Virus record (IMG/VR): IMGVR_UViG_3300020169_000093
Span: 1 to 26,886 of that record
Direction: 5' to 3' (one strand)
Source: a virus
Length of the DNA: 26,886 nucleotides
Part shown: positions 6,098 through 22,077 of the stretch, one piece after another
How positions within the stretch are numbered: position 1 is the stretch's first letter
Layout of the letters: every line of letters begins with the position of its first letter
Made by a program: the position numbers and the translations under genes
The notes under the pieces: model-generated
The model's input: the letters and a program-made list of their open reading frames with translations, nothing else
The model's database searches: none
What the model was told of the DNA's origin: nothing

Positions 6098-6645
6098 TGG
6101 CTAAGAAAAGAACAGTCACTAAGACAGCTTCGGCTGGCGGAAACAAAACCAGAACGGTTACGCGTGCTAAAAAAGACGGCACTACTAAAGTAAAGTCAAA
6201 GACTAAGTCTGGCAATACGGTTACTAGGCGCAAGGTGACCGTTGGCCCTAAGAAGACTACAAGAAAAGATGTGTTTTTTGAGCCTATTGGAGATAACCGT
6301 TACGGGTCTAAGGCACTTATGGGAGAAAAAAAAACAACAACTAAATCCGTAAAGGGTAAAGAAGTTGTCAAGAATCGTAAAGCGAAAAAGGGAGAGGTCA
6401 AAAAAACTAAGTCCAAAATTAACGGAACGCAAACCACTACAAGTAGAACGGCTATAGTTACCGGAAAAGAGTACGCAGGGCCTAGGGGAATTTACGCTCC
6501 TAAATATACAAACGTAGACGGAGGGAGGCCTGTAAAATCGGGTTTTCACCCCTACAAAAAATTTCAGCGGGAGACTACCACGACTACAACTCCCGCTAAA
6601 CGCACTACGGTTAAGACCAAAATCAAAAAGAGAGGTCGTCGATAA
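6097..6645 (+). CDS. Lys/Thr-rich low-complexity basic protein, 182 aa
   Basis: The 182-residue protein starts at ATG 6097 (TAATG coupling) and its stop overlaps the next ATG at 6645. Most of it is low-complexity Lys, Arg, Thr and Gly, with runs such as KTKSGNTVTRRKVTVGPKKT and TTTTTTPAKRTTVKTKIKK, and two more ordinary segments (FFEPIGDNRYGSKAL and YAGPRGIYAPKYTNVDGGRP). It is histone-like in charge and disorder but has no recognised fold. A role in condensing packaged DNA, or as an internal virion protein, is plausible from charge and from the structural context. I cannot name a family. Confidence 0.7.
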   Translation: MAKKRTVTKTASAGGNKTRTVTRAKKDGTTKVKSKTKSGNTVTRRKVTVGPKKTTRKDVFFEPIGDNRYGSKALMGEKKTTTKSVKGKEVVKNRKAKKGEVKKTKSKINGTQTTTSRTAIVTGKEYAGPRGIYAPKYTNVDGGRPVKSGFHPYKKFQRETTTTTTPAKRTTVKTKIKKRGRR

Positions 6646-6887
6646 TGGGTGAGCTGAAGAAATGGCGGGACCAGAAATGGGTGCGGATAGGGACGGACGG
6701 TTCTATCCTTGGCGCTTGCGGAACCAGTAAGGACACAAAGAACCCTGACCGCTGCCTGCCATTATCTAAAGCTAATTCTATGAGTAAATCTGAGCGAGCT
6801 GCTACAGCTCGTAAGAAAAAACGACGAGGAGGAAGCAGGCGTCAGTTTGTTTCCAATACGGCGGCAGGACGAGTAACGAATAGTTGA
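6645..6887 (+). CDS. Small basic phage protein, DUF5872-like, 80 aa
   Basis: The 80-residue protein begins MGELKKWRDQKWVRIG and contains a Cys pair (GACGTSKDTKNPDRCLP), then MSKSERAATARKKKRR and a QFVSN tail. This order (W..KW near the start, RCLPLSKA, S.SERAATARKK) resembles the DUF5872-type family seen in phages and large viruses; I recall the family but cannot verify the match. Its function is unknown. It is coupled to the gene before (ATG overlapping the previous TAA) and lies one base before the next start region. It is one of a run of small basic genes. Confidence 0.75.
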   Translation: MGELKKWRDQKWVRIGTDGSILGACGTSKDTKNPDRCLPLSKANSMSKSERAATARKKKRRGGSRRQFVSNTAAGRVTNS

Positions 6888-6888
6888 T

Positions 6889-7179
6889 ATGGCGAATAAA
6901 AGCAAGATGAAATGCAACAGCCCTACTCGGTCGGACCGAGCGGGGAAGAAGATGATGGTCAAAGCTTGCTCTGGCGGCAAAGAGAAGCTCATTCATTTCG
7001 GCGCCAAGGGTTATGGACATAACTATTCTGCTGCTGCGCGTAAGAGCTTTAAAGCTCGTCATAAGTGTGGTACGGCCACCAATAAACTTACGGCGCGTTA
7101 CTGGGCTTGCAAAAAGTTATGGGCTGGTAAGGGCGGTTCTAAGAAGAGCTCTCCGTCCAATAGGCGTGGGAAATATTAA
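6889..7179 (+). CDS. Small Cys-containing basic phage protein, 96 aa
   Basis: The 96-residue protein begins MANKSKMKCNSPTRSDRAG and contains five Cys in spaced motifs (MKCN, VKACSGG, HKCGTA, YWACKKLW). The ending KKSSPSNRRGKY is basic. The core (KACSGGKEKLIHFGAKGYG, then KARHKCGTA and ARYWACKKLW) is a pattern I associate with conserved, uncharacterised marine-phage proteins. The Cys/His spacing could bind a metal, but this is not shown. It lies in the small basic gene run, and a -7 box follows its stop. Confidence 0.75.
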   Translation: MANKSKMKCNSPTRSDRAGKKMMVKACSGGKEKLIHFGAKGYGHNYSAAARKSFKARHKCGTATNKLTARYWACKKLWAGKGGSKKSSPSNRRGKY

Positions 7180-7180
7180 G

Positions 7181-7188
7181 TACATTTG
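7181..7188 (+). promoter_or_regulatory. -7 box TACATTTG before the 56-aa gene
   Basis: TACATTTG fits TAnnTTTG and ends 15 nt before ATG 7204, the same spacing as the promoters at 5841 and 26754. No clear -33 is seen. It would start a second transcript for the fibre and adhesin genes. Confidence 0.45.
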
Positions 7189-7203
7189 TAAAAACAGAAT
7201 ATA

Positions 7204-7374
7204 ATGCCCTCACGTTCTCGCCCTTCAAAAGGATTAGGGGATACCGTTGAAAAAATTACTAGAGCAACAGGTATCAAGCAGGTAGTGGAGAAGGTCTCCC
7301 AAGCTACAGGCTCCGATTGTGGCTGCGGCCAACGCCGCGACACGTTAAACAGAATTTTCCCATACGATAAATAA
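7204..7374 (+). CDS. Small phage protein with CGC motif, 56 aa
   Basis: A 56-residue frame runs from ATG 7204 to TAA 7372-7374. It has a basic start (MPSRSRPSKGLGDTVEKI), a helix (TRATGIKQVVEKVSQATG), a DCGCGQRRD segment and an ending NRIFPYDK. The KGLGDT...DCGC...R...L.RIFPY pattern resembles small conserved phage proteins of unknown role. The clustered Cys could bind metal or form a disulfide. The next gene begins two bases after its stop, consistent with one operon. Confidence 0.75.
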   Translation: MPSRSRPSKGLGDTVEKITRATGIKQVVEKVSQATGSDCGCGQRRDTLNRIFPYDK

Positions 7375-7376
7375 TT

Positions 7377-7949
7377 ATGCCAAACATCCCTTTAACCAAT
7401 AAGATTCACACCGTAACATCGGGAGTGGAAACCGTAAATAAAGGCTCTGCTCAAGCAAACGCTGGGCGAGAAGCATACACTATCCAAGACCTAGCAGATA
7501 CTATTGGAGGCGGCGGCGCTGTTGACTCTATTGTAGCAGGAGACGGAATTACCGTTAGCGAAGCAACAGGTGACGTAACTGTATCTGCTAAGATTGGTGG
7601 TGCTAACGCGGATAGCTATATAGGTGAGTTTACCGCTGACGACGCTATAGGCGCTTCTAAGATATTCAGTAGCACTACCACTTCGAGCGACCCAACAGGG
7701 TCGTCCTTAACGTATGCAAACTATTTGTTTGGAGACCTTAGCAACCCTGGCATAGCTACATTCCAAAAAACGTCTATGGTTTTAATGCAAACCCAAGACA
7801 TAGCCCCTAGGAGTTCGTCGACGGGAGGGTTTACAGGTCAGATAGTTATCTTTCATGATGGAAGCGCGGATGATGGTATTTATGTGTGTACTTCAGGGGG
7901 CGCTGGGGGCAGCGCTACGTGGAAAAAAGCGGCATTAACATTAGTATAA
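7377..7949 (+). CDS. Probable virion or fibre-associated protein, 190 aa
   Basis: The 190-residue protein is Gly/Thr/Ser-rich and strand-like: IVAGDGITVSEATGDVTVSA near residues 52-72 is typical of phage fibre or spike proteins, and the ending (GSADDGIYVCTSGGAGGSATWKKAALTLV) resembles the terminal 'value reported in a table' motif that recurs at the end of the 895-residue fibre in this window (YIYVCIAANTWKRVAI). There is no signal peptide or membrane segment. It leads a set of three virion-like genes ahead of the adhesin. The exact role, such as an adaptor, connector or spike, is not resolved. Confidence 0.7.
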   Translation: MPNIPLTNKIHTVTSGVETVNKGSAQANAGREAYTIQDLADTIGGGGAVDSIVAGDGITVSEATGDVTVSAKIGGANADSYIGEFTADDAIGASKIFSSTTTSSDPTGSSLTYANYLFGDLSNPGIATFQKTSMVLMQTQDIAPRSSSTGGFTGQIVIFHDGSADDGIYVCTSGGAGGSATWKKAALTLV

Positions 7950-7955
7950 GAAACT

Positions 7956-8477
7956 ATGGCATATCAAAAATTACAGGTAGGACTAGCGCTAGAAATAGTT
8001 CCATTCGATTACGACATCCCGAACCCTGCGGGACCTATCTTCGAAAGTACGAGCACGGTAGGAACGCAATCTAACGTAACAACGCTTACGCTTATTGACG
8101 CTAACGCTGATTTTATTAAGGAAGGTATAAAGCCTGGGATGGTTATTAAGGGGGGCGGTGCAAATTTTACTTTTGCTGTCGTTAGCTCCGTAGATAGCGC
8201 AACGCAGTTAACGGCTACGATAGAAAACGGATATGTCTGGACAGAAGAATACGGGTACACTATATACGCAGAGACTACCGACGGTTGCGTTTTATATGTA
8301 GGGGGTACGCTTGCGCCTAACACAGCGGGATTTAAGATTCCAATAATTACCGCTTCGGGCTCTCTCGTTACGCTAGAGGGCGTCTTGCCAGGCTCCTTTA
8401 TACCCGTTCAGGTACGAAGGGTAAGCGCACGGACACCACTCGCGGGTGAAGACTTAAAAATTGTAGCTTTCTGGTAA
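7956..8477 (+). CDS. Conserved phage structural protein, 173 aa
   Basis: The 173-residue, strand-rich protein begins MAYQKLQVGLALEIVPFDYDIPNP and ends VQVRRVSARTPLAGEDLKIVAFW. The start (AYQKLQ.G.AL..IP.D) and the ending with PVQV.RV and .IVA.W are features I recognise from a small structural protein family common in marine phages, often annotated as hypothetical or virion-associated. The middle segment (FIKEGIKPGMVIKGGGANFTFAVVSSVD) looks like a repeat of strand pairs. The adhesin gene begins one base after its stop, so the two are co-translated or at least co-transcribed. Confidence 0.75.
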   Translation: MAYQKLQVGLALEIVPFDYDIPNPAGPIFESTSTVGTQSNVTTLTLIDANADFIKEGIKPGMVIKGGGANFTFAVVSSVDSATQLTATIENGYVWTEEYGYTIYAETTDGCVLYVGGTLAPNTAGFKIPIITASGSLVTLEGVLPGSFIPVQVRRVSARTPLAGEDLKIVAFW

Positions 8478-8478
8478 T

Positions 8479-11400
8479 ATGAGCGGAACTATCATAGGTA
8501 TTGCTAACGCGTTTGGCGCCAGTATTTCGCCTGGCGCTGCTCAGGGTTCGGCTCCTGGCCCTCCCCCTAGTCAAGACCCTATGAATTTTTATGTCACCCC
8601 GTATAACTCGGCGGGGACTTCAACCCCTAGCGGTCAGTATAAACTTGGTTTGTACTCTACGGGCATTTATAATTTTACGGTTGATTGGGGCGATGGCAAT
8701 ACCGACGTTATTACATCGTATAACCAACCCGAGGTTACGCACGACTACGGAACGGTTTTGCCTACGGATAATTTTGAAATTACCATTACGCCTAACTCAC
8801 CGATTCGGCAACAGGCGGTAAACAGTTGGTATTTCGGAAATCGAAACGAAGGAGACGGGGTTAAAGTAAGGTCTATTGACCAGTTTGGCGCTACCCTTTT
8901 TTATGCTGACCAAGATATATTTTACGGATGTGAGGTCCTAGGTACTTTTGCTTCTACTATAAGCAACGTCCCCACTATTTTAAACAAGGTTATTGGAGAC
9001 GGATTTTTCTTTAATTGCGACGAGCTTGCCCCTGCTTTTTATACGGCTTACTGGGTAGGGCCATTTACTGGTACCGCAGAATCATTTAACGAAGGAAAAT
9101 CCGTTGCGGGGCTTCCTGTGGGAAATTCTAGAGGAAAGTTCGAGCTTGACTTTACTCCTACCAATATGTTTAGGGCGTTTAAAAATCAAGCGATTTTTAA
9201 CCAAAATGATGTAGGTCTTTACTGGGACGTTTCTAGCTGCAACAACTTTACGGAATGTTTTTCTTCTTGTTTGCGCTATAACCAGCCGTTTCCCAACTGG
9301 ACCTTTTTGACGGGTACGCCTGTTTTTGCGGCGGATATGTTTAAAAACGCCGTAGACTTCAATCAAAATATAACGGGTTGGAATACGTCTGCGTTTCAGG
9401 ATATGGGTGGGATGTTTGCCCGTACGTTGCCCGTTGGTTCGGGAGGGGTGACGGACTCTGTATTTAACCAAGCTATTGGCGTTTGGAATACAGATAACGT
9501 ACGCGACGCAAGCGCTATGTTTTTTAACGCCGTCAACTTCAACCAAGATTTAAGCAATTGGTTTAGTACGGGTTCTTTACAAAATATAGGCCCTAGCTCA
9601 GGCGGCATAGTAAGTATGTTTTCTGGCGCTACTTCTTTTAATAGCTCTGTAGCTAACTGGGACCTTACCAATCCTTTGCTTACTTCTGTTTCTTATGTTT
9701 TTAACGGCGCCACTTCATTTGACCAGCCTCTTAATTCGTGGGACGTTTCTGGCGTTTCTTTTTTTGTAGGCACTTTTAACGGCGCTACTGCATTCAACCA
9801 AAATTTAGCGCTTTGGGACGTTTCCTCGGGGCTATTTTTTAGTGAGATGTTTAAGGGCGCTACTTCTTTTGTGGGTACTTCGCTTACTTCGTGGAACGTG
9901 TCTTCTGCTACTGATATGCAGGATATGTTTAACGGGGCTACTTCTTTTACAAATTCACTTGTTTTTTGGAACCCGTCTAGCGTGACCAATATGTCGGGGA
10001 TGTTTAACGGCGCTACCCTTGCCAACCCCAACGTAAGCGGATGGAATATATCTAGCTTAGCGAACGCTTCGGATATGTTTACGAATAGCGGGCTCAGCTC
10101 TTTTAATTACCAAGCGCTTTTGGTGGCTTGGGCGGCTCAGGCTCCTAACATACAAAGCGGCGTAACGCTTTCTAGTATTAACCAATACGCAAACTTTGGC
10201 GCTCCTGCCGACGCCAAAGCGAAGTTGGTTAATGATTATGGATGGACTATTACCGACTTGGTAAACCCGAATTTGCCTCCGCCTGCTTTAACTTTTACTA
10301 TTGACACTACGGCTACCGAAGTCGGGAGCACGGCAAACAATCAATACCGCCTTCCTTTAATTTCATCTGGCACTTATGATTTTTACGTCCAGTGGGGCGA
10401 CGGCGATGCCGAGCAAATTACGAGTTGGAACCAAGCAGAAGCTACGCATACGTATGCTGCTGCGGGTACGTATACAGTAAAGATGTTTGCGGTAGCGGCA
10501 ACTACTACCCCTATTATCGACCATATTAGCTGGGCTTCTCAAGACGGCACTACGCTAAGTGCTGCCAACGACAGGCTTAAGGTTCAGGATATTTCTGAAT
10601 GGGCAGCGGCGGTTTTGTATCTCAACGAATATGTCTTTACTAATTGCGAAAATTTAAATATTACGACTACTTCTTCTCCTACTTTTGGAAGCAAGGTATT
10701 GAGGACGTCTGCTTTTGAAAATTGCGATAACTTAAGTGGTGATTTAAGTGGTTGGGGAACTGTTGCGTCTCCCATTACGGGCTTGGCGGGGAATTTTTAT
10801 AAAAACTCTACTTCCAACCCCAACTTTAATTTTGTTTTGCAGCATAACGTCGGGAGCCTTATACAGCCATTTCAAAATTGCGCGGCATTTAATAATCCTT
10901 TAAATAACTGGGACGTCTCTAGCGTTATCGGTTTTACGGCTGCTTTTAGTGGCGCTAGTGCTTTCAATCAAGATATTAGCGGTTGGGATACGGGCAATTC
11001 AAGTGCTTTTAACGCGATGTTTAGTAACGCTTTAGCGTTCAATCAAAACATTAGTTCTTGGAATGTTGCTAGCGTAACTACGTTTAGCCAAATGTTTCAA
11101 GGCGCCACTTTATTTAATCAACCTGTAGGGGCTTGGACGACTACGTCTTTAACGAATTTATTTTCAACGTTTAAGAACGCTGCTGCGTTTGACCAGGATT
11201 TAGCGAACTGGGACGTAAGCGGGGTTACTACTGCTGTCGATATGCTTACTGGCAGCAACATAAGTGCTGCTAACTGGGACGCTTTGCTTATTGGCTGGGC
11301 GGCTCAAGGGACTGGAGCGGGCTCTTTACAAGCTAATGTTACGCTATCGAATATCAACCAGCTCCACGGTTCGGTAGACTCGGCGGCTACAGCTGCTTAT

Positions 11401-14400
11401 AACAAGTTAACTTCTGCTCCATACAACTGGACTATTGTCGATTTGGGTGGCGCTCCTGTAGGGAACCTACTTTTGGACACTAGTTACGGAAGCGGAGCTG
11501 AGGCGGCTTACTCGGTCCGTAAGTTGCGCACCGCGTACACAGGGCCTGCTATGAAGGTCCAGGACACCGTAGGAGGCGCTACGCAGGACATTTACTTCGA
11601 TGCCAACGACAACCTTGACGAGGCGGCTATTATCTCTTATGGAGGCTCTAACGACGTTTTCGTAGAGACCTGGTACGACCAGAGTGGCAATGGGAACGAT
11701 GCCTCTCAAGCTACGTCCACTAGTCGTCCTAAGATTTACGACGGCACAACTGGCGCGTTGGTGAAAGAGAACGGAAAGGTGGCTTTGGACTTTGATGGGG
11801 CAAGCGATTATTTAAGCACTAGCAACGGGGTAGCAAACGACCCAGAATTAACCATATTTCAAACTTGCATTGCAACAGGTACAAACACTGGAGTCCAAAT
11901 AAATTATGCTTTACCGCAAATAGCAGGCTCGCACACTGACCCCTATGGGCGATTAATACTATTGCGCAGGTTTGGCGACACTATGATTACTCGATTGAAT
12001 GGAGGAACAACCAGTCAAGGTTCGGGAAGTTACCCGTTGTCAAAAACGTTATTTACTTTGAATTCAAAACAAGGTTTTGTCGATGCAAGCGGAACAAATA
12101 CGGGAACTTTTACGGGAGCAGATATAACTTATCCAAATTCTGTACCTTTTATAATTGGCGCAAACGGTGGCGCTGGTGAAAATTGGGAAGGCAAAAACCA
12201 AGAGATAATCGTTTATGCATCTGACAAATCAAGCGCAGACCAAACAAGCATCGAATCCAACGTCGGCGACTACTTCACCCAAAACACGCCACTACTCGAC
12301 ACGTATTCAGGTGCGGCGGCGGCGTACTCTTTGAGGCTTTTGGACTCGACGTATACAGGCTCAGCGGTACAGGTTCAGGATACGGTAGGTGGAGCAACTC
12401 AGGATATTGGGTTCAATGTATTCGGTGAGCTCGATACAGTTTCACTGGCTGCTTACGGGGGTTCTAATGATGTGTTTGTAGCTACCTGGTACGACCAGAG
12501 TGGTAACAGCAACGATGCTACACAGGGTACGTCTGCTAATCGTCCGAAGATTTACGACGGGACGACGGGCGTGGTGACGGAAGGCAGCGCAGGGAACGGA
12601 AAGCCTGCGGTGGAGTTCGATGGGTCGAACGATGTGTTAAAAACAAGTAGCGTTGTAATTAGCGGAACAGTCGGGCGCTCTATGTTTGTAATTGCTAAAG
12701 CCGACACGGTTGGAACGGATTCAATTTTCAGCTTAACAGACAACGGAAGCGGGACGGGTTCCTTGTGGCAGTTTACGCCCGAGGTTGCTATACGTGTAAC
12801 TGGAAGTCAAGTGTTTGCAAATAACCCAATAGACTCTCAAACGCTTGGTTCCGTGCATTTGGCTTCAAGTTCGAATATTGCCGACATTGAATATTTTGAA
12901 AACGGAACACAGGCGACCGCAACATCTTTGGGAACAACAGACCCAATCAATACTTCCAGTTTAGGTGTTAGCGAAATCGGCGGAAGCGATGACAAAGTAA
13001 CTTGGTTTTATGATGGTAATATTCAAGAAATTATTATGTACGGTTCTGACCAATCCGCCAACCGCGCAGGAATTGAAACCAACATCAACACGTTCTACGA
13101 CATCTATACTGAGCCTGTAGCGCCTTTGTTGTTGAATAACTATCCTGGCGCTGCTGCGGCTTACTCATTGCGTAGGATTAACTCTAGCTATCAGGGTTCT
13201 GCTGTACTGGTGCAGACGGCCCTTAACACTAAGGGACCAGTCTATATCGGCTTTGATTCCAATAACGACTTGGACACTACTTCATTGGCTGCCTACGGAG
13301 GTAGCGAAGACGTGGTGGTAGCGGGATGGTTGGACCAGTCTGGCAACGGGAACGATGCCTCTCAAGCTACGTCCGCTAATCGTCCTAAGATTTACGACGG
13401 TACGACGGGTGTTGTGACGGAGAACGGAAAGCCTGCGGTGCAGTTTGATGGGACGGATGACGAATTGAGTGTTAGTTCGTATCCGTTCAGCCAAAGCGAT
13501 ATTTACATAGCTTCTATTGGTAAGCATACTGACACAACAACCGAGGCAAACTTATATAGTTTCGGCACTGCCAGCACTATTTACGCCCTTGGGTTTAATA
13601 GAGACGCGGCATCAACATACAGCGCAACGCGATTTGTAGGTGCGCATGATGCACAAGGCGACAGTTACAATCAAACACAAAGCCTCTTTTCGCAACTTTA
13701 TGCAAGCTCTACAACAAGCGCATATTTAGATGGGGTTCAAGGAACCCAATCTTATACGTGTCGAGGGCGGTTTAATAGTAATTCCATAGGAGGCAGAGAT
13801 GGTCTATATTTTTTGAACGGCAACATCCAAGAGATAGTCATATATGACTCCGACCAATCCACCAACCGCACCGACATCGAAGACAACATCGGTGGCTACT
13901 ATGACATCCCGCTCCCAGGGCTCTTAGACGAGAACCCAGGAGCAGCAGCAGCTTACTCTTTACGTCGTCTAAGCTCAACGTACACAGGCAGTGCCATTCA
14001 AGTACAGCGTGCAGATAACGTAGGCGGTACGACTGACATCGGCTTCGATGGCTACGGAGACTTAGACACAGCTGCCTTGACGACAGCAGCAGCTGGCAAT
14101 GATATGGTGGTGGCTACGTGGTACGACCAGAGTGGCAATGGGAACGATGCCTCTCAAGCTACATCCGCTAATCGTCCTAAGATTTACGACGGGACGACGG
14201 GCGTAGTAACGGAGAACGGGAATCCTGCGGTTGAGTTTGATGGAACAAGTGATTATTTGAGTAATGCTGGAAATTTAACTTATACATCAGGACTTTCGAT
14301 TTATTCGGTCTCTAAATTCGATTCATTAAGTAATACTGAAAGACTGTTTTGTGACGACATCACAGGAGTGCAAGGGTTTTTTATTTATTCGAGTAGTGGA

Positions 14401-16269
14401 TATCTTCAGGTAAATGATAATAATACAGGATATTTAAACCAAACCTTATCTGGAGCAGATTTAACACAGCAGGTCAGGAGTTTAAACTTCAACGGCTCAA
14501 CGGGAGCGTACAATTACGCTTATAATGGTAGCAATACGTCGTCGAGCATTGCGGGTTGGACTGGCCCAATAAATAGCACGAACACCGCAAATATTGGTGT
14601 TATGGGTAGCGGCAACGGCTCACAATTAGGTGACGGTTTAGTTCAAGAAATTATTACCTACCCATCTGACCAATCCGCCAACCGCACGAACATCGAGGAT
14701 AACATCGGCGGCTACTATGACATCCCGCTGGCTGGCTTGCTCGATGAGAACCCAGGAGCAGCTGCTGCTTATAGCTTGCGTAGACTAAGTTCAACCTACA
14801 CAGGCAGTGCTATACAGGTGCAGCGAGCTGACAATGTCGGGGGTACTCACAACATAGGCTTCGACTCTTATGGAGAGCTGGACACTACAGCTTTGACTAC
14901 AGCTGCTCAAGGGAATGATATGGTGGTGGCTACTTGGTATGACCAGAGTGGTAACAGCAACGATGCCTCTCAAGCTACATCCGCTAATCGTCCAAAGATT
15001 TACGACGGTACAACTGGGGTAATATTGGAGAATGGAAAACCTGCTGTTGAGTTTGATGGTAGTTCAAATATTATGGATGCCTCTTTAACTATTGCGAACG
15101 ATTTTACCGCAATCGTTACGGGCTTAAGCACTGACACAACCAGCAATCAAAAATTCATTTGTGACCAAACAAACTCGAAAGGACAGCTATTTGTAAATTC
15201 AGGAAATTTCAATTGGTTTGATGGAAGCAGCGCGACCGTATTAGAAGCGGCTGACACTTCGCGACATTTGTTTTTTGTTTCTGCTGATACGGGCGGTTCA
15301 TTTGTTTCAATTGATGGTGCAGACCAAAGCATAACGGGAATAGCCAACACGGGATATGGTGAATTAAAAATCGGTGGTCGAACAATATCAAGCCAATTTT
15401 TAGACGGCAAAATGCAAGAAGTCATTTTGTACCCTTCCGACCAATCCGCCAACCGCACCGACATCGAGGATAACATCGGAGGCTACTATGACATCCCACT
15501 GGCTGGCTTGTTGGACGAGAATCCAGGAGCGGCTGCTGCTTATAGCTTGCGTAGACTAAGCTCTACGTACACAGGCAGTGCCATACAGGTACAGCGAGCT
15601 GACAACGTTGGTGGAACGACTGACATAGGCTTCGACTCTTACGGAGAGCTGGACACTATAGCTTTGACTACAGCGGCAGCTGGCAACGATATGGTTGTGG
15701 CTACTTGGTATGACCAGAGTGGTAACAGCAACGATGCTACACAGGGTACGTCTGCTAATCGTCCGAAGATTTACGACGGGACTACGGGCGTAGTGACGGA
15801 CAACGGGAAGCCTGCGGTAGAATTCAGCACCTCGGGAACCGCTACATTTAATATGACAAGCAGTCTGACATCTGTTCAAAGTGTTTTTCACGTTTCAAAA
15901 AGCACCCGAACCGTTCTATATGCACCAATCCTTGGGCACTCAACTGCTTTAGATTATAGTCCTGGTGTTAGTTATCAATTATTACGGGTTGGATATTCGG
16001 CTACTTATGTTATTAATGGTGACAACCGTATTAATGGGCAAACGGTAGACTTTACTTCAACGGCAGGCAAAAAACCATTGTCACAAAGTTTATTGAGTTT
16101 AATTCATACGTCAGCAAGCGGAAATGTAAATCAAATAACACAGGATAGAACGATAACCACAAGAAGCTGGGATGGAGCCATACAAGAAATAATTCTATAC
16201 ACTTCCAACCAATCCAGCAACCGAACAGACATCGAGGACAACATCAACACGTTTTACGACATATACTAA
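8479..16269 (+). CDS. Giant modular adhesin or tail fibre: PKD-like, BspA-like (DUF285) and six LamG-type modules
   Basis: The 2596-residue protein has three parts. Residues about 40-110 hold a PKD-like strand set (FTVDWGDGNTDVIT), and about 229-595 a block of BspA-type repeats (motif MF..A..FNQ.L..W). The plan repeats: PKD-like at 605-672 (FYVQWGDGDAEQITSW) and BspA-like repeats at about 775-990. From 997 to 2596 follow six modules of 250-280 residues. Each has a conserved first part (AAAYSLRRL, then TWYDQSGN.NDA, RPKIYDGTTG and GKPAVEFDG) and a divergent second part that should form a LamG/concanavalin-like sandwich, ending DQS.NRT.IE.NI..YYDI. The conserved part recalls the arabinofuranosidase-catalytic/LamG region of other marine-phage proteins. 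The protein probably binds host glycans; no catalytic site is claimed. No signal peptide is seen, as expected for a virion protein. Confidence 0.88.
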   Translation: MSGTIIGIANAFGASISPGAAQGSAPGPPPSQDPMNFYVTPYNSAGTSTPSGQYKLGLYSTGIYNFTVDWGDGNTDVITSYNQPEVTHDYGTVLPTDNFEITITPNSPIRQQAVNSWYFGNRNEGDGVKVRSIDQFGATLFYADQDIFYGCEVLGTFASTISNVPTILNKVIGDGFFFNCDELAPAFYTAYWVGPFTGTAESFNEGKSVAGLPVGNSRGKFELDFTPTNMFRAFKNQAIFNQNDVGLYWDVSSCNNFTECFSSCLRYNQPFPNWTFLTGTPVFAADMFKNAVDFNQNITGWNTSAFQDMGGMFARTLPVGSGGVTDSVFNQAIGVWNTDNVRDASAMFFNAVNFNQDLSNWFSTGSLQNIGPSSGGIVSMFSGATSFNSSVANWDLTNPLLTSVSYVFNGATSFDQPLNSWDVSGVSFFVGTFNGATAFNQNLALWDVSSGLFFSEMFKGATSFVGTSLTSWNVSSATDMQDMFNGATSFTNSLVFWNPSSVTNMSGMFNGATLANPNVSGWNISSLANASDMFTNSGLSSFNYQALLVAWAAQAPNIQSGVTLSSINQYANFGAPADAKAKLVNDYGWTITDLVNPNLPPPALTFTIDTTATEVGSTANNQYRLPLISSGTYDFYVQWGDGDAEQITSWNQAEATHTYAAAGTYTVKMFAVAATTTPIIDHISWASQDGTTLSAANDRLKVQDISEWAAAVLYLNEYVFTNCENLNITTTSSPTFGSKVLRTSAFENCDNLSGDLSGWGTVASPITGLAGNFYKNSTSNPNFNFVLQHNVGSLIQPFQNCAAFNNPLNNWDVSSVIGFTAAFSGASAFNQDISGWDTGNSSAFNAMFSNALAFNQNISSWNVASVTTFSQMFQGATLFNQPVGAWTTTSLTNLFSTFKNAAAFDQDLANWDVSGVTTAVDMLTGSNISAANWDALLIGWAAQGTGAGSLQANVTLSNINQLHGSVDSAATAAYNKLTSAPYNWTIVDLGGAPVGNLLLDTSYGSGAEAAYSVRKLRTAYTGPAMKVQDTVGGATQDIYFDANDNLDEAAIISYGGSNDVFVETWYDQSGNGNDASQATSTSRPKIYDGTTGALVKENGKVALDFDGASDYLSTSNGVANDPELTIFQTCIATGTNTGVQINYALPQIAGSHTDPYGRLILLRRFGDTMITRLNGGTTSQGSGSYPLSKTLFTLNSKQGFVDASGTNTGTFTGADITYPNSVPFIIGANGGAGENWEGKNQEIIVYASDKSSADQTSIESNVGDYFTQNTPLLDTYSGAAAAYSLRLLDSTYTGSAVQVQDTVGGATQDIGFNVFGELDTVSLAAYGGSNDVFVATWYDQSGNSNDATQGTSANRPKIYDGTTGVVTEGSAGNGKPAVEFDGSNDVLKTSSVVISGTVGRSMFVIAKADTVGTDSIFSLTDNGSGTGSLWQFTPEVAIRVTGSQVFANNPIDSQTLGSVHLASSSNIADIEYFENGTQATATSLGTTDPINTSSLGVSEIGGSDDKVTWFYDGNIQEIIMYGSDQSANRAGIETNINTFYDIYTEPVAPLLLNNYPGAAAAYSLRRINSSYQGSAVLVQTALNTKGPVYIGFDSNNDLDTTSLAAYGGSEDVVVAGWLDQSGNGNDASQATSANRPKIYDGTTGVVTENGKPAVQFDGTDDELSVSSYPFSQSDIYIASIGKHTDTTTEANLYSFGTASTIYALGFNRDAASTYSATRFVGAHDAQGDSYNQTQSLFSQLYASSTTSAYLDGVQGTQSYTCRGRFNSNSIGGRDGLYFLNGNIQEIVIYDSDQSTNRTDIEDNIGGYYDIPLPGLLDENPGAAAAYSLRRLSSTYTGSAIQVQRADNVGGTTDIGFDGYGDLDTAALTTAAAGNDMVVATWYDQSGNGNDASQATSANRPKIYDGTTGVVTENGNPAVEFDGTSDYLSNAGNLTYTSGLSIYSVSKFDSLSNTERLFCDDITGVQGFFIYSSSGYLQVNDNNTGYLNQTLSGADLTQQVRSLNFNGSTGAYNYAYNGSNTSSSIAGWTGPINSTNTANIGVMGSGNGSQLGDGLVQEIITYPSDQSANRTNIEDNIGGYYDIPLAGLLDENPGAAAAYSLRRLSSTYTGSAIQVQRADNVGGTHNIGFDSYGELDTTALTTAAQGNDMVVATWYDQSGNSNDASQATSANRPKIYDGTTGVILENGKPAVEFDGSSNIMDASLTIANDFTAIVTGLSTDTTSNQKFICDQTNSKGQLFVNSGNFNWFDGSSATVLEAADTSRHLFFVSADTGGSFVSIDGADQSITGIANTGYGELKIGGRTISSQFLDGKMQEVILYPSDQSANRTDIEDNIGGYYDIPLAGLLDENPGAAAAYSLRRLSSTYTGSAIQVQRADNVGGTTDIGFDSYGELDTIALTTAAAGNDMVVATWYDQSGNSNDATQGTSANRPKIYDGTTGVVTDNGKPAVEFSTSGTATFNMTSSLTSVQSVFHVSKSTRTVLYAPILGHSTALDYSPGVSYQLLRVGYSATYVINGDNRINGQTVDFTSTAGKKPLSQSLLSLIHTSASGNVNQITQDRTITTRSWDGAIQEIILYTSNQSSNRTDIEDNINTFYDIY
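11467..16266 (+). repeat. Six tandem LamG-type modules in the adhesin gene
   Basis: Module starts are 11467, 12292, 13126, 13921, 14737 and 15508 (residues 997, 1272, 1550, 1815, 2087, 2344), so units are 759-834 bp. The first 350 or so bases are strongly conserved at DNA level; the remainder diverges. Short tracts differ between modules in alternative versions: GGTAACAGCAACGATGC occurs in modules 2, 5 and 6, and GGCAA[TC]GGGAACGATGC in modules 1, 3 and 4. The tract from 'ACACAGGGTACGTC' onward is shared only by modules 2 and 6, and GCCTCTCAAGCTAC by 1, 3, 4 and 5. This patchwork implies gene conversion between modules. Confidence 0.85.
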
Positions 16270-16364
16270 TGAAGCCCAAGGTCATACCAATTTCGCAGAA
16301 GCCTCAGAAGCCTAAAGTAGAAAGCAATATCTTTACGTATTACAACATCAATAAACAAAAATGA
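16269..16364 (+). CDS. Tiny coupled protein, 31 aa
   Basis: A 31-residue frame (starts MKPKVIPISQKPQKPKVE; ends YNINKQK) starts within the adhesin stop (TAATG at 16267-16271) and stops within the next start (ATGA at 16361-16364). Both junctions are the tight overlaps used elsewhere in this genome, which is the main reason to call it. It is Lys/Pro-rich, with no domain. It could be a linker peptide that keeps ribosomes coupled, or an unrecognised small protein. Confidence 0.55.
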   Translation: MKPKVIPISQKPQKPKVESNIFTYYNINKQK

Positions 16365-16795
16365 GTAATTACCTAATCGTACCTCCCGAAGGAGGGCTTA
16401 CCTCAGAAGAGCGAGCAGCAGCTATCTCTCGTCAACTCTACTGTATCACCCGTCCAGAGTCTATCCAGAACCCTGACGAGGCTAACTTCAACCTATTTGG
16501 CTCTGTCATCCACCCTACTACAGGGGAGGCAGCACTGTCGATTATCTTAGATTGGCTTATCTATGTCAACCCAGCGGTAGATTTGACTGAGCTACAGCTT
16601 TTGTTTCCTTTGATGCCAGAGGCGGAGAAAGACTCGCTTACTACGCTTATCACCACGTCGCCGACGGTTCTCTTTGAACAGATTATCCCGACCGAGTGTA
16701 CGGTCCACGACCAGGCGTATATGGAAGCCAACGGATGGTTCCCGCCAGAGCCAGAAGAAGTAACTGAGGACCAAATTGGAGAAATCGTTGAGTAA
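16361..16795 (+). CDS. Hypothetical protein, 144 aa, acidic tail
   Basis: The 144-residue protein starts at ATG 16361 and ends at TAA 16793-16795, with the next ATG overlapping (TAATG). It is soluble and mainly helical (begins MSNYLIVPPEGGLTSEERAAAI), with a Pro/Glu-rich end (WFPPEPEEVTEDQIGEIVE). I do not recognise a family. It follows the adhesin and precedes another unknown gene with an acidic end. Tail-assembly or fibre-chaperone roles are possible from position but are not shown by the sequence. Confidence 0.7.
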   Translation: MSNYLIVPPEGGLTSEERAAAISRQLYCITRPESIQNPDEANFNLFGSVIHPTTGEAALSIILDWLIYVNPAVDLTELQLLFPLMPEAEKDSLTTLITTSPTVLFEQIIPTECTVHDQAYMEANGWFPPEPEEVTEDQIGEIVE

Positions 16796-17079
16796 TGGCT
16801 AAGCATACACACGTATTTAAGACGCCCGCCTTTTGGTTCGCCTTTAATAACGGCGAAGAAGTAAAGGGCAACCCGCGAAATAACTATGGGTATGCTAGCA
16901 AGGGTGAGCTCAGTACAGGGCAAGATTATTTAGATATATTCGATACAGAAGAAGAAATGGCGGCTTATATCGACCTTCAGGTCGGAGAACCTGGGTGGTA
17001 TTATAAGTGCGAAAACCGCATCCCTTATCCGCCCAATCCTAACGAGTGGGAATGTACTGAAGAAGAAGTAGCTCCGTAA
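16795..17079 (+). CDS. Hypothetical protein, 94 aa
   Basis: The 94-residue protein begins MAKHTHVFKTPAFWFAFNNG and contains aromatic and Gly residues with acidic stretches (DIFDTEEEMAAYIDLQVGEPGWYYKCENRIPYPPNPNEW). It ends in Glu-rich sequence. No family is recognised. It starts inside the previous stop (TAATG) and ends 90 nt before the likely start of the lysis cassette. The composition is that of a real soluble protein. Confidence 0.65.
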   Translation: MAKHTHVFKTPAFWFAFNNGEEVKGNPRNNYGYASKGELSTGQDYLDIFDTEEEMAAYIDLQVGEPGWYYKCENRIPYPPNPNEWECTEEEVAP

Positions 17080-17105
17080 CTTTATAATATGAAATTTAAT
17101 TCTGA

Positions 17106-17139
17106 TTGCACTTTAAATACGGGGGTGAATTATACTTTG
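17106..17139 (+). promoter_or_regulatory. Promoter-like pair TTG ... TATACTTTG before the lysis cassette
   Basis: TTG at 17106-17108 lies 22 nt before TATACTTTG at 17131-17139. The -7 element is one base longer than the TAnnTTTG consensus (TA, three bases, TTTG), so it is a near match. It lies 30 nt before ATG 17170 and inside the longer frame that begins at 17089, which favours the shorter start for that gene. Confidence 0.35.
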
Positions 17140-17169
17140 ATTGAAAAAAACAAAGAGCAAAAAGAAAAT

Positions 17170-17376
17170 ATGAATTACGAACTTATATCAGTTGGCGTAG
17201 GCGCTGCTTCGGGTATTGTTACAACGTACGTCAAGATGCAGAGCGAAATTGTTAAAATTAAAAGCCGCCTTTATTCTTTAGAAAAACAAGAAACTAAAGT
17301 CCAGCAAACATTGGAGGTATTGCTTGAGGGCGTAAACGAGATTAAAATCTTGCTGGCTAAAAAAGGCATAGAGTGA
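17170..17376 (+). CDS. Small coiled-coil protein with possible N-terminal membrane segment, 68 aa
   Basis: The chosen start is ATG 17170 (MNYELISVG), giving 68 residues; an upstream ATG at 17089 would add 27 residues and run through the promoter-like element. The first 20 residues (ELISVGVGAASGIVTTYVKM) are weakly hydrophobic and could enter a membrane, followed by a coiled coil (EIVKIKSRLYSLEKQETKVQQTL). This layout recalls holin-associated or haemolysin-XhlA-like proteins near phage lysins, but the identity is not proven. It overlaps the next gene (GTGA). It likely belongs to the lysis cassette with the following three genes. Confidence 0.6.
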   Translation: MNYELISVGVGAASGIVTTYVKMQSEIVKIKSRLYSLEKQETKVQQTLEVLLEGVNEIKILLAKKGIE

Positions 17377-17462
17377 ATCGCCAAAAGCAATACAAAGACA
17401 GTCTATACCTTGTTAAGGTAGCTGTAATTGGGTTGGCCTTATGTTTAGTTTGTTTGTTATGA
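17373..17462 (+). CDS. Very small single-membrane-helix protein, 29 aa (GTG start)
   Basis: A 29-residue frame starts at GTG 17373-17375, overlapping the previous TGA, and stops at TGA 17460-17462 inside the ATGA of the amidase. The first 11 residues are polar and basic (MNRQKQYKDSL), followed by a hydrophobic helix (YLVKVAVIGLALCLVCLL) to the end. Both neighbouring overlaps support translation. Such a short transmembrane peptide beside an endolysin is consistent with a holin-like, spanin-like or lysis-control peptide. The reading as a real gene is fairly strong; the function is inferred. Confidence 0.6.
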   Translation: MNRQKQYKDSLYLVKVAVIGLALCLVCLL

Positions 17463-17878
17463 GAGATATAAGAAGAGTTATAATACATTGTTCTGCTACG
17501 CGAGAAGGCCAAGATATATCTGCGGAAACTATTCGGAGATGGCATACTTCTTCACCTCGCAATTGGTCAGATATTGGATATCATTTTGTTATAGAGCTAG
17601 ACGGAACGATAAAAAAGGGCAGGGATATCGATGAAAAAGGCAGCCACACAAAGGGAGAAAACTACGACTCTATTGGCGTGTGTTATATTGGGGGATTAGA
17701 AAGAGACGGCAAAACCCCTAAAGACACGATGACTGAAATGCAAGATATTTCAATGCTCGAACTCATTAAAAGTTTACGCCTTATTTTTGGGGAGTTAAGT
17801 ATCCACGGACATAATGAATATTCTAGTAAGGCTTGCCCTTCATTTCAGGTCCAGGAAAAATATGAATTTTTAAACTAA
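17459..17878 (+). CDS. Endolysin: T7-lysozyme-type N-acetylmuramoyl-L-alanine amidase (amidase_2)
   Basis: The chosen start ATG 17459 gives 139 residues; an upstream ATG at 17441 adds MFSLFV and overlaps the small membrane gene more deeply. Zinc ligands expected from T7 lysozyme (H17, H122, C130) match H10 in IIHCSAT, H118 in IHGHNEY and C126 in SKACPSF, with the same 8-residue H-to-C spacing. Catalytic Tyr46 matches Y41 in DIGYHFVI, and Lys128 matches K124. The enzyme cuts the amide bond between muramic acid and L-alanine in peptidoglycan. There is no signal peptide, so a holin-type partner should be needed. It sits between small membrane genes. Confidence 0.92.
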   Translation: MRDIRRVIIHCSATREGQDISAETIRRWHTSSPRNWSDIGYHFVIELDGTIKKGRDIDEKGSHTKGENYDSIGVCYIGGLERDGKTPKDTMTEMQDISMLELIKSLRLIFGELSIHGHNEYSSKACPSFQVQEKYEFLN

Positions 17879-17883
17879 AGAAA

Positions 17884-18048
17884 ATGAATTTTTTGACACA
17901 ATTTTGGAGCGAAATTTTGCTCGCCATTATTACAGCGGCGGGAACAATTACTGCTTTGACAGAGACCGAAAAAGACGATAAAGTCGTCAATATATTGTCT
18001 CGTATCCTCAACGCAGTAGTAATGGGTAAGAACCGTCGCAATCGATAA
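17884..18048 (+). CDS. Holin-like small membrane protein, 54 aa
   Basis: A 54-residue frame runs from ATG 17884 to TAA 18046-18048. A hydrophobic segment (FWSEILLAIITAAGTITAL) follows a short start, then an acidic-to-basic helical tail (TETEKDDKVVNILSRILNAVVMGKNRRNR). One membrane pass with a charged C-terminus is typical of small holins and holin accessory proteins. The start follows the amidase stop by 8 nt, with A-rich sequence AAAGAAA before it. Given the order amidase then membrane protein, holin is the likeliest role, but the small protein at 17373 is an alternative candidate. Confidence 0.7.
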   Translation: MNFLTQFWSEILLAIITAAGTITALTETEKDDKVVNILSRILNAVVMGKNRRNR

Positions 18049-18054
18049 GAACGT

Positions 18055-20742
18055 ATGTCTAAGATTAGCTTATATGCCATAGACGCCAGCCCTACGACTG
18101 ACGATAAGGTCATAGGGACTGACGTTAACAACAACAATGTTACCAAGAACTATCGTATTGGCGATATTATAGGGTTGTCTTCTTTTAATATAACGGGCGA
18201 CACAGGCACTGCGCAAACCGTTGTAAATGGAGATACTATTACCTTTTCGGGGGGCGTAGGGCTAGTCACGAATGCGTTAAATAACGACACCATTGTCTTT
18301 ACGCTCGATTTAAATGAGCTTCCTGTTTCTTCTTCGGCAACCGACGCGGGATATTTTGCGGTAGTAAACAGCACTGGTTCGCAGTACAGGATTGCGTCTC
18401 CGCTTATTCCTTTTAGCACCTTTGGGGCAGCAACTAATTCCGTCTTAATGGGAGGGAATAGAATTATTAACTTAGGTGCTCCTAGTGCCGCTACCGACGC
18501 GGCAACCAAGCAATATGTAGACAATACATTTGCTGGCTCAGGGGCTTTAATTTTTCAAGGCTCATATGACGCGTCGACTGCTCCACCTACAGGCGCGGGA
18601 ATATTAACAGGGTTTACTTACGCGGTTACGGTCGCGGGAGACGGCGCAGGTTTCTGGAGCTCAACTTTAAGTATAGGTGATATTATAATTGCTGACTCGG
18701 ACAACCCCGTTAACGAATCGGAATGGAGCGTTATTGACAATAACGTTAATGTAGCAACGGATACGATTCAAGGAATTGCTTCGTTCCCTACCTCGGGAGG
18801 GCTTTCTATATCTTCTGGCGCTGTTTCTTTAAGCACTCAAGCTAGCAGCGGCACCTTTGGAGATGCCGCGAATTCGGTTACGCTTACGATTGATGGAAAA
18901 GGAATTGTAACGTCGGCTTCGGAAAGCCCTATCGCTATTACAACGTCTCAAATTACCGACTTTTGTAGTGCGGTTACCGCTTGCGCTACGTCTATCAATT
19001 TAGGTAATTCTAACCTTACCCAAACAGCAGCGACATCGAGAGAGTACGATTTAAATGGGGGCTCAATAAACTTTACAGAAGGCGTAGATTCTTATTTCGC
19101 AATTAAAAAGCCATCCCCTAGCGAACCCGCTTCTGTGCGCTTAGGGTACGACAGCGTTGCAGGGTCTGCGGTAGAGCTTAAGTTTTATGGCAGTAACGCA
19201 GGTTACGTTGCGCTTAAATCACCTGTAGGGGTACCTACGTCTTATGCCCTTACGCTTCCAGCAGCGGCTGGCGCAACAGGCCAGGTTTTGGTAAACGATG
19301 GTTCGGGTACGCTGTCTTGGCAAAACAACTCTACGGCTTCCGTTAATTTAGGTAATTCTGACCTTACTCAAACCACATTTCTCAGGAATTACGATTTAGG
19401 TTCGGGTACGCTCGCGTTTAATTACGGGGCGAATACAGCCCTTACTGTTAGCGGCTCTGAAGTTTCTTTAGGGGCTAACGTCCCTTTAAGGCTCAGAGAC
19501 AACTTAGGAACCAATTCCGTCGCAATAAAATCGCCTGACTCTTTGTCGAGCAGCTATACGCTTACGCTTCCCCCCACGGACGGCGTTGCGGGACAGGTAT
19601 TGAAGACGGACGGCGATGGGGTCTTGGACTGGGTTAATTCAGACGCTTCTATAAATTTAGGCAGCGCCAACCTTACTCAAGACGGTATTCTAAGGCAATA
19701 TGATTTAAATGGTGGGGCTTCGGTATTGGCTTTTACCAACGGTAGCGACTATATACTTACGCTTAATACGGCTGAAGTTTCTTTAGGGGCTAACGTCCCC
19801 TTAAGGTTTAAAGACAACTTAGAAATCAATTCCGTCGCAATAAAATCACCTAACTCTTTGTCGAGCAGCTATACGCTTACACTTCCTGCGAGCGACGGCA
19901 ATACTGGGCAGGTACTAAAGACGGACGGCTCTGGAGTCTTGGACTGGACGAGTGTATCTAATCTCGGAAACTCCAACCTTGTACAATCGGACAATAGCAG
20001 AAGTTACGATTTAGGCTCAGGCACATTATCGTTTGCTTCGGGAGGTAGCTCAGCCCTTACCGTTAGCGGCTCTGAAGTTTCTGTAGGCGCTAACATACCT
20101 TTAAAGTTAAAAGATAACACGGGGACCAGCTCTGTCGGTATAGTAGCTCCTAATAGCTTGAGCAACGTTAGTTATACGCTTACGCTACCCAATACCGACG
20201 GCAATACTGGGCAAATATTAAAGACCAACGGCTCTGGGGTATTAGACTGGATTGATTATCCGCAAGCCATTAACCTTGGCAATTCTGACCTTACTTTAAC
20301 TGAAGATTCTTCAAGAAGGTATAATATCGGAGCTAATAAAGATTTGTCTTTTTGGGGCGACCTCACTAGCGCAACACCTATATTAACTTTAAATTCAGTT
20401 TCGAAAAGTCTTGACTTGCCAAGCGGAGTAAGCGACCCAGCTACATTGCGTTTTGTTGGTGATGCTCACTCACTTAGATTTGGCGCCCAGCCCACCGAAG
20501 ATTATCACATACGCCTCCCCTCTACTGCGCCGAGCGTTAATCAACAATTAAGTGTTGTTCAACAGGTTGGCGGCACCGATATTTTAGACTGGGTTGACTC
20601 GGGGTCTAAGGTCACCCTTGGAACAGCACCTGCTTCAGCGACGGCTACTGGAGAGCAAGGGGATGTTGTGTGGACGACAGATTATATCTATGTTTGCATT
20701 GCGGCTAATACTTGGAAAAGAGTAGCTATTGCTACGTGGTAA
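18055..20742 (+). CDS. Tail-fibre-type repeated protein, 895 aa
   Basis: The 895-residue protein begins MSKISLYAIDASPTTDDKVIG, a start typical of phage tail fibres. Residues about 110-170 contain a fibre motif (GAATNSVLMGGNRIINLGAPSAATDAATKQYVDN). From about 315 there are five repeats of 100-116 residues, each starting with a variant of NLGNSNLTQ and reading YDL, a Ser/Gly strand, SYTLTLP, TGQVLKTDGSGVLDW. The C-terminus (GDVVWTTDYIYVCIAANTWKRVAIATW) matches a common ending in phage fibres. It is Ser/Thr/Gly-rich, with no membrane segment. Host-receptor contact is the likely role, either as a second fibre beside the adhesin or as a partner of it. Confidence 0.85.
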   Translation: MSKISLYAIDASPTTDDKVIGTDVNNNNVTKNYRIGDIIGLSSFNITGDTGTAQTVVNGDTITFSGGVGLVTNALNNDTIVFTLDLNELPVSSSATDAGYFAVVNSTGSQYRIASPLIPFSTFGAATNSVLMGGNRIINLGAPSAATDAATKQYVDNTFAGSGALIFQGSYDASTAPPTGAGILTGFTYAVTVAGDGAGFWSSTLSIGDIIIADSDNPVNESEWSVIDNNVNVATDTIQGIASFPTSGGLSISSGAVSLSTQASSGTFGDAANSVTLTIDGKGIVTSASESPIAITTSQITDFCSAVTACATSINLGNSNLTQTAATSREYDLNGGSINFTEGVDSYFAIKKPSPSEPASVRLGYDSVAGSAVELKFYGSNAGYVALKSPVGVPTSYALTLPAAAGATGQVLVNDGSGTLSWQNNSTASVNLGNSDLTQTTFLRNYDLGSGTLAFNYGANTALTVSGSEVSLGANVPLRLRDNLGTNSVAIKSPDSLSSSYTLTLPPTDGVAGQVLKTDGDGVLDWVNSDASINLGSANLTQDGILRQYDLNGGASVLAFTNGSDYILTLNTAEVSLGANVPLRFKDNLEINSVAIKSPNSLSSSYTLTLPASDGNTGQVLKTDGSGVLDWTSVSNLGNSNLVQSDNSRSYDLGSGTLSFASGGSSALTVSGSEVSVGANIPLKLKDNTGTSSVGIVAPNSLSNVSYTLTLPNTDGNTGQILKTNGSGVLDWIDYPQAINLGNSDLTLTEDSSRRYNIGANKDLSFWGDLTSATPILTLNSVSKSLDLPSGVSDPATLRFVGDAHSLRFGAQPTEDYHIRLPSTAPSVNQQLSVVQQVGGTDILDWVDSGSKVTLGTAPASATATGEQGDVVWTTDYIYVCIAANTWKRVAIATW
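18994..20330 (+). repeat. Five tandem repeats in the fibre gene
   Basis: Repeats start at about 18994, 19342, 19651, 19957 and 20269. Each carries the NLG-S-LTQ, YDL, SYTLTLP and TGQVLKTDG motifs. Modules 2 and 3 are nearly identical over long stretches: the tract with TCTTTGTCGAGCAGCTATAC at 19541 recurs at 19856, and GTTTCTTTAGGGGCTAACGT at 19462 recurs at 19778. This indicates a recent duplication within the gene. Confidence 0.8.
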
Positions 20743-20756
20743 TTAAACTAAATTAA

Positions 20757-20993
20757 ATGAATAAATTAACTGAAGGCGAGTTGAAAGAATTGCGCGATGC
20801 GCTAACCGAGCTCAACCAAAACAAAGTTGCTCTGGGCGAATGCTTAATGCAGCAACAAGATATCCTCAACAATATCGATAAGATTAAATCTTCTTACTAC
20901 GATATGGAAAAGTCTTTGATAGAGACTTATGGGGTCAACTCAAATATCAATATTGAGACGGGCGAAGTAACTGTTAAAAGTCCGTCTGAATAA
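20757..20993 (+). CDS. Small coiled-coil protein, 78 aa
   Basis: The 78-residue protein starts at ATG 20757. It is almost entirely helical with heptad-like spacing (ELKELRDALTELNQNKVALGE, then LMQQQDILNNIDKIKSSYYDME), with a polar C-terminal tail (TGEVTVKSPSE). Small coiled-coil genes of this size are frequent ahead of phage packaging genes; no family is recognised. It could be a dimerising partner of the following genes. It follows the fibre by 14 nt. Confidence 0.75.
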   Translation: MNKLTEGELKELRDALTELNQNKVALGECLMQQQDILNNIDKIKSSYYDMEKSLIETYGVNSNINIETGEVTVKSPSE

Positions 20994-21011
20994 AGAGTTT
21001 CGCCATCTATA

Positions 21012-21233
21012 ATGCTTATTCGAAAAATCTCCATAGGGCCTGATTATAAATCGGGGATGCACTACTTATTAGGCCAGGAGGTTCTCGGTGGCAATTATAA
21101 AATACACCTCATCAAAATTGAGGAGAAATCAAATTCAATTCAAATATGGATAGAGCGCAATAACGAAATAATGCTTTGGAAACATTTTTCGTACACTATG
21201 CCGCTATCTGTAGAGTACAACATTAATTTTTAA
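21012..21233 (+). CDS. Conserved phage protein, 73 aa
   Basis: The 73-residue protein begins MLIRKISIGPDYKSGMHYLLG and ends MPLSVEYNINF. The order (IRKISIGPDYK.GMHY..GQEV, IEEKSNSIQIWIE, MLWK.F..TMP.S.EYN) matches conserved small proteins adjacent to packaging genes in marine phages, as I recall them. It is strand-rich, with no membrane segment, and its role is unknown. The stop overlaps the next ATG (TAATG at 21231-21235). Start and end are well fixed by the coupling. Confidence 0.78.
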   Translation: MLIRKISIGPDYKSGMHYLLGQEVLGGNYKIHLIKIEEKSNSIQIWIERNNEIMLWKHFSYTMPLSVEYNINF

Positions 21234-21796: not shown

Positions 21797-22077
21797 ACGC
21801 GAAAGAACTCAAAGAAAAAATTATAGCTGCGGGTCACAAGGCGGTAGAGCAGCTTATTAAGGTAGCCAAAGAAGATATCATAAAGCCCGATATAGAAGAC
21901 GAGCTGGCCGCCGACAGGTTAAAGAACGCAGCGGCTACAAAAAAACTTGCTATATTCGATGCGCTAGAGATACTTAACCGTATTGAGCAGGAGAGAGAAA
22001 ATTTAGAGGCGATGGAAAAGCGTGGTGATTCATCTACTAATACCAAGCAAGGATTTGCGGAAAGACGTTCAAAATAA
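21793..22077 (+). CDS. Probable small terminase subunit, 94 aa
   Basis: The 94-residue protein starts at ATG 21793 (ATGA overlap) and ends at 22077, overlapping the TerL frame. It is helical and charged (begins MNAKELKEKIIAAGHKAVEQL; later LNRIEQERENLEAMEKRG) with the conserved-looking ending GFAERRSK. Small helical DNA-binding proteins in this position, directly before TerL, are typically TerS, which selects the packaging site. There is no recognisable helix-turn-helix by eye, so the name rests on position and composition. Confidence 0.65.
   Translation: MNAKELKEKIIAAGHKAVEQLIKVAKEDIIKPDIEDELAADRLKNAAATKKLAIFDALEILNRIEQERENLEAMEKRGDSSTNTKQGFAERRSK

Follow-up and report, generated by a model that had tools for sequence, protein, structure and literature searches.

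The window, which is the whole stretch of DNA analysed here (26,886 nt, or 26.9 kb, of viral DNA in the IMG/VR record IMGVR_UViG_3300020169_000093, an incomplete genome), encodes a long protein that ends in six tandem modules. The modules share a conserved first part and carry very different sequences in the middle. The question that this arrangement raises is how so many different sequences came to sit on one repeated scaffold: whether they diverged in place, or whether they were exchanged as cassettes between conserved flanks, as a preliminary description of this DNA proposed, and, if so, by what means.

Organization of the adhesin

The adhesin open reading frame (Table 1) matches phrog_10356, a ‘virion structural protein’, at 5e-90. 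Its N-terminal ~1000 residues consist of PKD-like and DUF285 repeats, and these are followed by the six modules of ~260 residues each. All modules have the same plan: a conserved N-part of ~107-111 residues, a variable middle (V) of ~113-127 residues and a conserved C-flank of ~30 residues, which ends every module and was absent from the preliminary description. The module boundaries were set from HMM hits, and the span given before for the six modules agrees with them.

Table 1. Coordinates of the adhesin, its modules and other genes in the window
Feature	Position	Strand	Subdivision	Basis
Whole adhesin ORF, 2596 aa	8479..16269	+		Full-length homologues; phrog_10356 match
N-terminal region with PKD-like repeats and DUF285 (BspA-type) repeats	8479..11466	+		PF03382 4e-113; PKD weak
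Module 1	11467..12288	+	N-part to 11808, V 11809-12189, C-flank 12190-12288	HMM hits
Module 2	12289..13125	+	N-part to 12633, V 12634-13014, then C-flank	HMM hits
Module 3	13126..13917	+	N-part to 13461, V 13462-13818, then C-flank	HMM hits
Module 4	13918..14733	+	N-part to 14253, V 14254-14634, then C-flank	HMM hits
Module 5	14734..15504	+	N-part to 15066, V 15067-15405, then C-flank	HMM hits
Module 6	15505..16266	+	N-part to 15834, V 15835-16173, then C-flank	HMM hits
Companion gene, 144 aa	16361..16795	+		No Pfam match
Terminase	22022-24301			
Portal	24301-26736			

In cultured phages, the annotations of module relatives range from hypothetical to virion structural or minor tail protein, and some name an arabinofuranosidase. 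The phrog match and the tail and virion annotations of these relatives are indirect signs that the protein may be located on the virion and may bind a host receptor. One module relative, at 57721-58227 of ON014754.1 (Pseudanabaena phage Pam2), is labelled botulinum neurotoxin type A; the label is probably misleading, the match being to the common ConA-like fold.

Homologues of the companion gene are found in diverse phages. Eighty-three of 95 lie directly 3′ of a module ORF, 11 are at a contig start and 1 is elsewhere, in a sample that favours the association, most of these loci having been fetched by the module search. A plausible guess is that the companion is a candidate for a dedicated adhesin-assembly factor.

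The window also encodes an amidase and a GroEL-like protein. The portal has relatives in podoviruses of Flavobacterium, Cellulophaga, Tenacibaculum and Maribacter, the best of these among the matches listed being 46-48% identical, and one uncultured relative has a portal that is 74% identical. Since the relatives of the portal sit in flavobacterial podoviruses, the host is likely to belong to the Bacteroidota, among marine bacteria of that type. Three other regions have features of their own. In the region 3268-5128, a small ORF follows the GroEL-like gene; in MW202828, an uncultured relative, this place is taken by a 10-kDa chaperonin, which points to a chaperonin pair in a podovirus-like phage. 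The product of 2183-3235 is Peptidase M43-like and has a weak match to dockerin. A fibre-like ORF of 895 residues at 18055-20742 has internal repeats of ~70% around 19383-20257 and no Pfam match.

Fold of the module

Modules 4 and 6, whose V sequences are unrelated, were modelled with AlphaFold. The model of module 4 has a pLDDT of 88 and a pTM of 0.88, with V as its less confident region, and that of module 6 has a pLDDT of 81.5, with residues 164-189 below 50. For both, the best PDB match is a GH54 α-L-arabinofuranosidase B catalytic domain (PF09206; PDB 1wd3, 6sxs), which is matched over the whole module with TMq values of 0.67 and 0.64; both also match a cyanopodophage tailspike. The preliminary description regarded the V-parts as unrelated lectin domains. 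In the two models they are, instead, alternative middles of one GH54-like/ConA-like fold. In both, V supplies the middle strands of a single domain, whose fixed scaffold is made up of the N-part together with the final strand and helix.

At the sequence level, PF09206 matches the N-part only, over profile positions ~11-99 of 315, and the profile-PDB match covers chain residues 16-88. A full-length GH54 match that includes the catalytic region was looked for, but the match stops near position 99, and no similarity was detected between the V-parts and GH54 sequence. Since the Pfam match covers just the N-terminal third of the profile, GH54 enzyme activity is not implied. Structural matches to proteins of clostridial neurotoxin complexes were set aside as the common ConA-like fold, with no functional meaning. 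When the PDB was searched by sequence with module 4 alone, the sole matches, to tubulin, were due to chance.

Constant and variable parts of the modules

A conserved first part and a divergent second part, as noted before, are present in all six modules of the window. Pairs of these modules are 56-93% identical in amino acid sequence in the N-part and 18-29% in V, where the background for unrelated V pairs has a median of 21% and a 95th percentile of 27%.

Base composition changes with the parts. The three GC values quoted earlier for the window are exact (0.617, 0.417 and 0.417), and the switch that they illustrate extends to the whole family, in which GC is 0.519 in the N-parts and 0.423 in the V-parts and is higher in N than in V in 95% of 189 modules (Wilcoxon p = 4e-32). 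The contig mean of 0.45 lies between the two, the N-parts being above it and the V-parts below. At the contig level (70 contigs), GC of the N-part correlates with that of the contig with a rho of 0.78 and GC of V with a rho of 0.48; the bootstrap interval of the difference, 0.11-0.52, excludes zero. For V, rho is 0.18 at the module level. This pattern would fit wandering V-parts between resident N-parts. Because rho for V rises to 0.48 at the contig level, it supports a foreign composition only moderately. The earlier equation of low GC with foreign origin is thus an incomplete account, since V-parts still correlate with contig GC and the N-parts themselves lie above the contig mean.

The patchwork of variants described between modules is real. 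In permutations, the longest runs of shared polymorphic sites are significant for the named pairs 2/6 (0 of 5000), 1/4 (p = 0.002) and 1/3 (p = 0.011); the first two survive correction for 15 pairs, while the third is nominal.

Arrays of closely related phages

Full-length homologues of 2571-2589 residues, with six modules in register, are present in three IMG/VR contigs (L005, L006 and L007). A near-complete relative, G001 (64.5 kb), has five modules in a single ORF of 2336 residues.

On both sides of the array the window is nearly identical to L005 (97.5% nucleotide identity at 6625-11800 and 99.0% at 16205-22634) and to L006 (98.6% at 7946-11798 and 99.2% at 16204-23495), and the N-terminal part of the adhesin is 97.5-98.6% identical at the nucleotide level in the two. 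Between these flanks, the alignment is limited to N-parts and C-flanks. None of the six V-parts of the window was found in L005 or L006, and the 18 slots of the three arrays hold 18 different cassettes. When L002 is added, there are 19 cassettes in 24 slots. L002 is 99.7% identical to the window over 10.4 kb (13069-23498), in a block that starts within the C-flank of module 2. It keeps V3-V6 identical to those of the window, whereas modules 1-2 differ over their whole length, and V of its module 1 is 86% identical to V of module 2 in the window. The window and L002 are chimeric arrays with respect to each other. The left edge of this exchange is not visible because L002 begins inside module 1. 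The window's own species is represented by four genomes, and exchange among them is read from assemblies.

The contrary outcome named in the preliminary description was an unchanged set and order of the six modules in all relatives, with the variable halves diverging at a steady rate; in the sisters, one scaffold bears V-parts that differ from phage to phage. Twelve other contigs from close relatives (L171, L172, L173, L175, L176, L178, L179, L181, L184, L189, L190 and L191) start within the array or immediately after it. This would be expected of assemblies that are interrupted where the sequence is repetitive and varies within the population.

Cassettes on different scaffolds

Across the family, similarity in the N-part and similarity in V are separate. 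Of the 743 module pairs whose N-parts are at least 80% identical, V identity is below 35% in 716. There are 56 pairs of complete modules in which V is at least 60% identical, and in 24 of these V identity exceeds N identity by 15 points or more; this count uses complete N-parts, N-parts cut at contig ends having produced some apparent discordances, and includes repeats of the same event in near-identical contigs. The 24 discordant pairs show what is expected of a recombination-diversified protein, in that a given variable segment is carried on unlike scaffolds by separate phages.

Near-identical cassettes (79-99% amino acid identity) occur on N-parts that are only 42-66% identical. Module 5 of the window and module 1 of L004 are 87% identical in V and 42% in N, and their common DNA block starts at position 15068 of the window. 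The corresponding values are 91% and 47% for L005 module 1 and G001 module 3, 90% and 52% for L006 module 1 and L029, and 79% and 59% for window module 3 and L061 module 4. V of window module 1 is found at 67-68% identity in L055 and L090. L023 shares a cassette with L005 (86%), even though its portal is only 32% identical to that of the window. Within one array, modules 1 and 3 of L037 are 99% identical in V and 47% in N, which suggests that a cassette may be copied within the array.

In DNA alignments of 18 pairs, the shared blocks mostly run from module nucleotide ~250-340 to ~720-790, some being longer. They mostly start inside the conserved RPKIYDGTTG..NGKPAVEFDG and stop in the C-flank. 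Values of dN/dS for shared cassettes are mostly 0.03-0.30, which means that purifying selection acts on most of them, with two pairs near 1, both at very low dS; since most values are so low, the cassettes are old, constrained pieces that have been reshuffled rather than hypermutated. The exchange of variable cassettes between conserved flanks that had been proposed is therefore largely borne out by the same cassettes on divergent N-parts, in other slots and in other phages, although the pieces exchanged are not separate lectin domains.

The main alternative is the import of entire modules (N, V and C), with N-parts homogenised later by gene conversion, so that the edge of the cassette is a by-product of concerted evolution. 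Conversion tracts do exist, and the N-parts of window modules 4-6 share 91-93% identity. The best L005 partner of a window N-part often sits at a different position in the array, and the difference between L002 and the window spans complete modules. Import of this kind, however, does not sit well with cassettes of 79-91% identity whose N-parts are 42-66% identical and whose shared blocks begin cleanly within the module, or with the same-position N-parts of modules 1 and 3, which are kept at 94-98% identity between the window and L005 while V is entirely different. We consider it unlikely.

Module relatives in bacterial genomes are distant, mostly at 25-59% identity, too distant for bacteria to be favoured as the immediate source of cassettes. 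A 17-kb contig of a Pirellulaceae MAG (L218) has a module 59% identical to the query and may really be phage DNA that was assigned to the bacterial bin. Another contig, L025, has 10 modules spread over three separate ORFs.

Probable route of exchange

It is highly probable, in our judgement, that the protein is a virion adhesin with tandem lectin-like modules in which V, of ~120 residues, is exchangeable between its flanks via homologous recombination, which would alter host recognition. Exchange would take place in the conserved flanks, between co-infecting phages, and its probable agent would be a phage Sak-type single-strand annealing protein with its exonuclease; conversion among the modules of one array would operate as well. 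The predicted ligands of the six V-parts are glycans or other receptors on the host surface, in which case recombination could alter host recognition while the scaffold stays unmutated.

A Sak annealase is present in the near-complete relatives G001 and G008, and in G001 an exonuclease VIII-like gene adjoins it. Both genes are seen in relatives only; neither lies in the window, a fragment that does not have to extend over that region. Rad52-like phage recombinases, a group that includes Sak, recombine short, diverged sequences (PMC3945230); this was shown for lambdoid phages with defective prophages, while here it is a proposed mechanism. A search of 10 records, G001 and G008 among them, gave no reverse transcriptase, with positive controls detected, in agreement with the earlier view that no retroelement is needed. 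The serine and tyrosine recombinase families (PF00239 and PF00589) were absent from 7 records, in a comparison where the window genome is itself incomplete, and the array has no inverted repeats of at least 16 nt. In these records neither an invertase nor an integrase was thus seen. Since none of these elements was found and Sak and an exonuclease are present in relatives, homologous recombination via the conserved flanks is the best-supported route.

These results also bear on a dedicated machine, such as a DGR, an invertase or shufflon, or a site-specific recombinase, with silent copies elsewhere in the genome. The fairly uniform boundaries and the duplicate cassette in L037 would suit such a machine, which is nevertheless very improbable given the absence of the enzymes from the 10 and 7 records and of inverted repeats from the array, and given the near-complete G001, where no silent module copies were found and all five modules are in one ORF. 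Adenine-specific substitutions of the DGR type were also looked for and are not seen, same-position V-parts aligning no better than background.

Accelerated point mutation under diversifying selection in the receptor-binding loops of vertically inherited modules would account for a V that is less confidently modelled and far more diverged than the N-part, but is extremely improbable when V identity between sisters equals the background of unrelated pairs while their flanks differ by 1-2.5%, when dN/dS is mostly well below 1, and when cassettes recur in other phages and slots. Misjoining of repeat modules during assembly is extremely unlikely too, even for repetitive arrays in which many contigs end, since four separate contigs have intact ORFs of 2571-2596 residues with six modules in register, modules 3-6 of the window and L002 agree at 99.7% and cassettes recur on contigs of unrelated phages.

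Returning to cassette exchange by homologous recombination, a wider reading has about an even chance of being right on the sequences compared here: a large pool of half-lectin cassettes would be shared among distant phages (portal identity down to ~32%) and used in a multi-slot tandem adhesin with a dedicated downstream companion, recombination within one fold giving combinatorial receptor recognition without a mutator.

Relation to known systems

In the gp38 adhesin of T-even phages, recombination occurs at glycine-rich motifs. Hypervariable segments of gp38 lie between these conserved motifs (PMC12892980), and the likeness is that variable receptor-recognition segments alternate with conserved motifs in one adhesin. 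In gp38, however, the segments are short loops on a polyglycine-II sandwich in one tip protein, while here they are fold halves of ~120 residues, in tandem in up to six slots. Lectin-type phage proteins diversified by DGRs, such as the tentaclins (PMC10743442) and those of zeta crAss-like phages (PMC12386605), are likewise lectin-like receptor-binding proteins with localised hypervariability. In them a C-type lectin is diversified by adenine mutagenesis with the help of a reverse transcriptase, whereas here no reverse transcriptase was found in the 10 records and whole segments are replaced. Domain mosaicism is known from phage receptor-binding proteins, with recent exchange of pieces across phage groups (PMC10684548); there the unit is generally a domain, but here it is a sub-domain piece that recurs from slot to slot within a single protein.

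That phage adhesins recombine is therefore already known, and the half-fold, multi-slot form is what appears to be new, since the literature searched yielded no account of cassettes of this kind. It allows adhesin diversification to be seen at sub-domain resolution, with the fold kept, the middle swapped and up to six slots varied independently. The V-parts of 202 modules fall into 137 clusters, 92 of which have a single member, and they also make the family a natural library of lectin variants on a common scaffold.

An ecological parallel is found in the metaviromic islands of marine phages, where host-recognition regions, including parts of genes, differ amid otherwise conserved genomes, and a standing pool of versions is expected under the constant-diversity model (PMC3909814). 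In the passages considered, the islands are described from read recruitment, without a defined cassette, boundaries or an array of slots. The slots described here vary between otherwise almost identical phages and provide a concrete, testable unit for this standing-diversity view of marine phage-host recognition.
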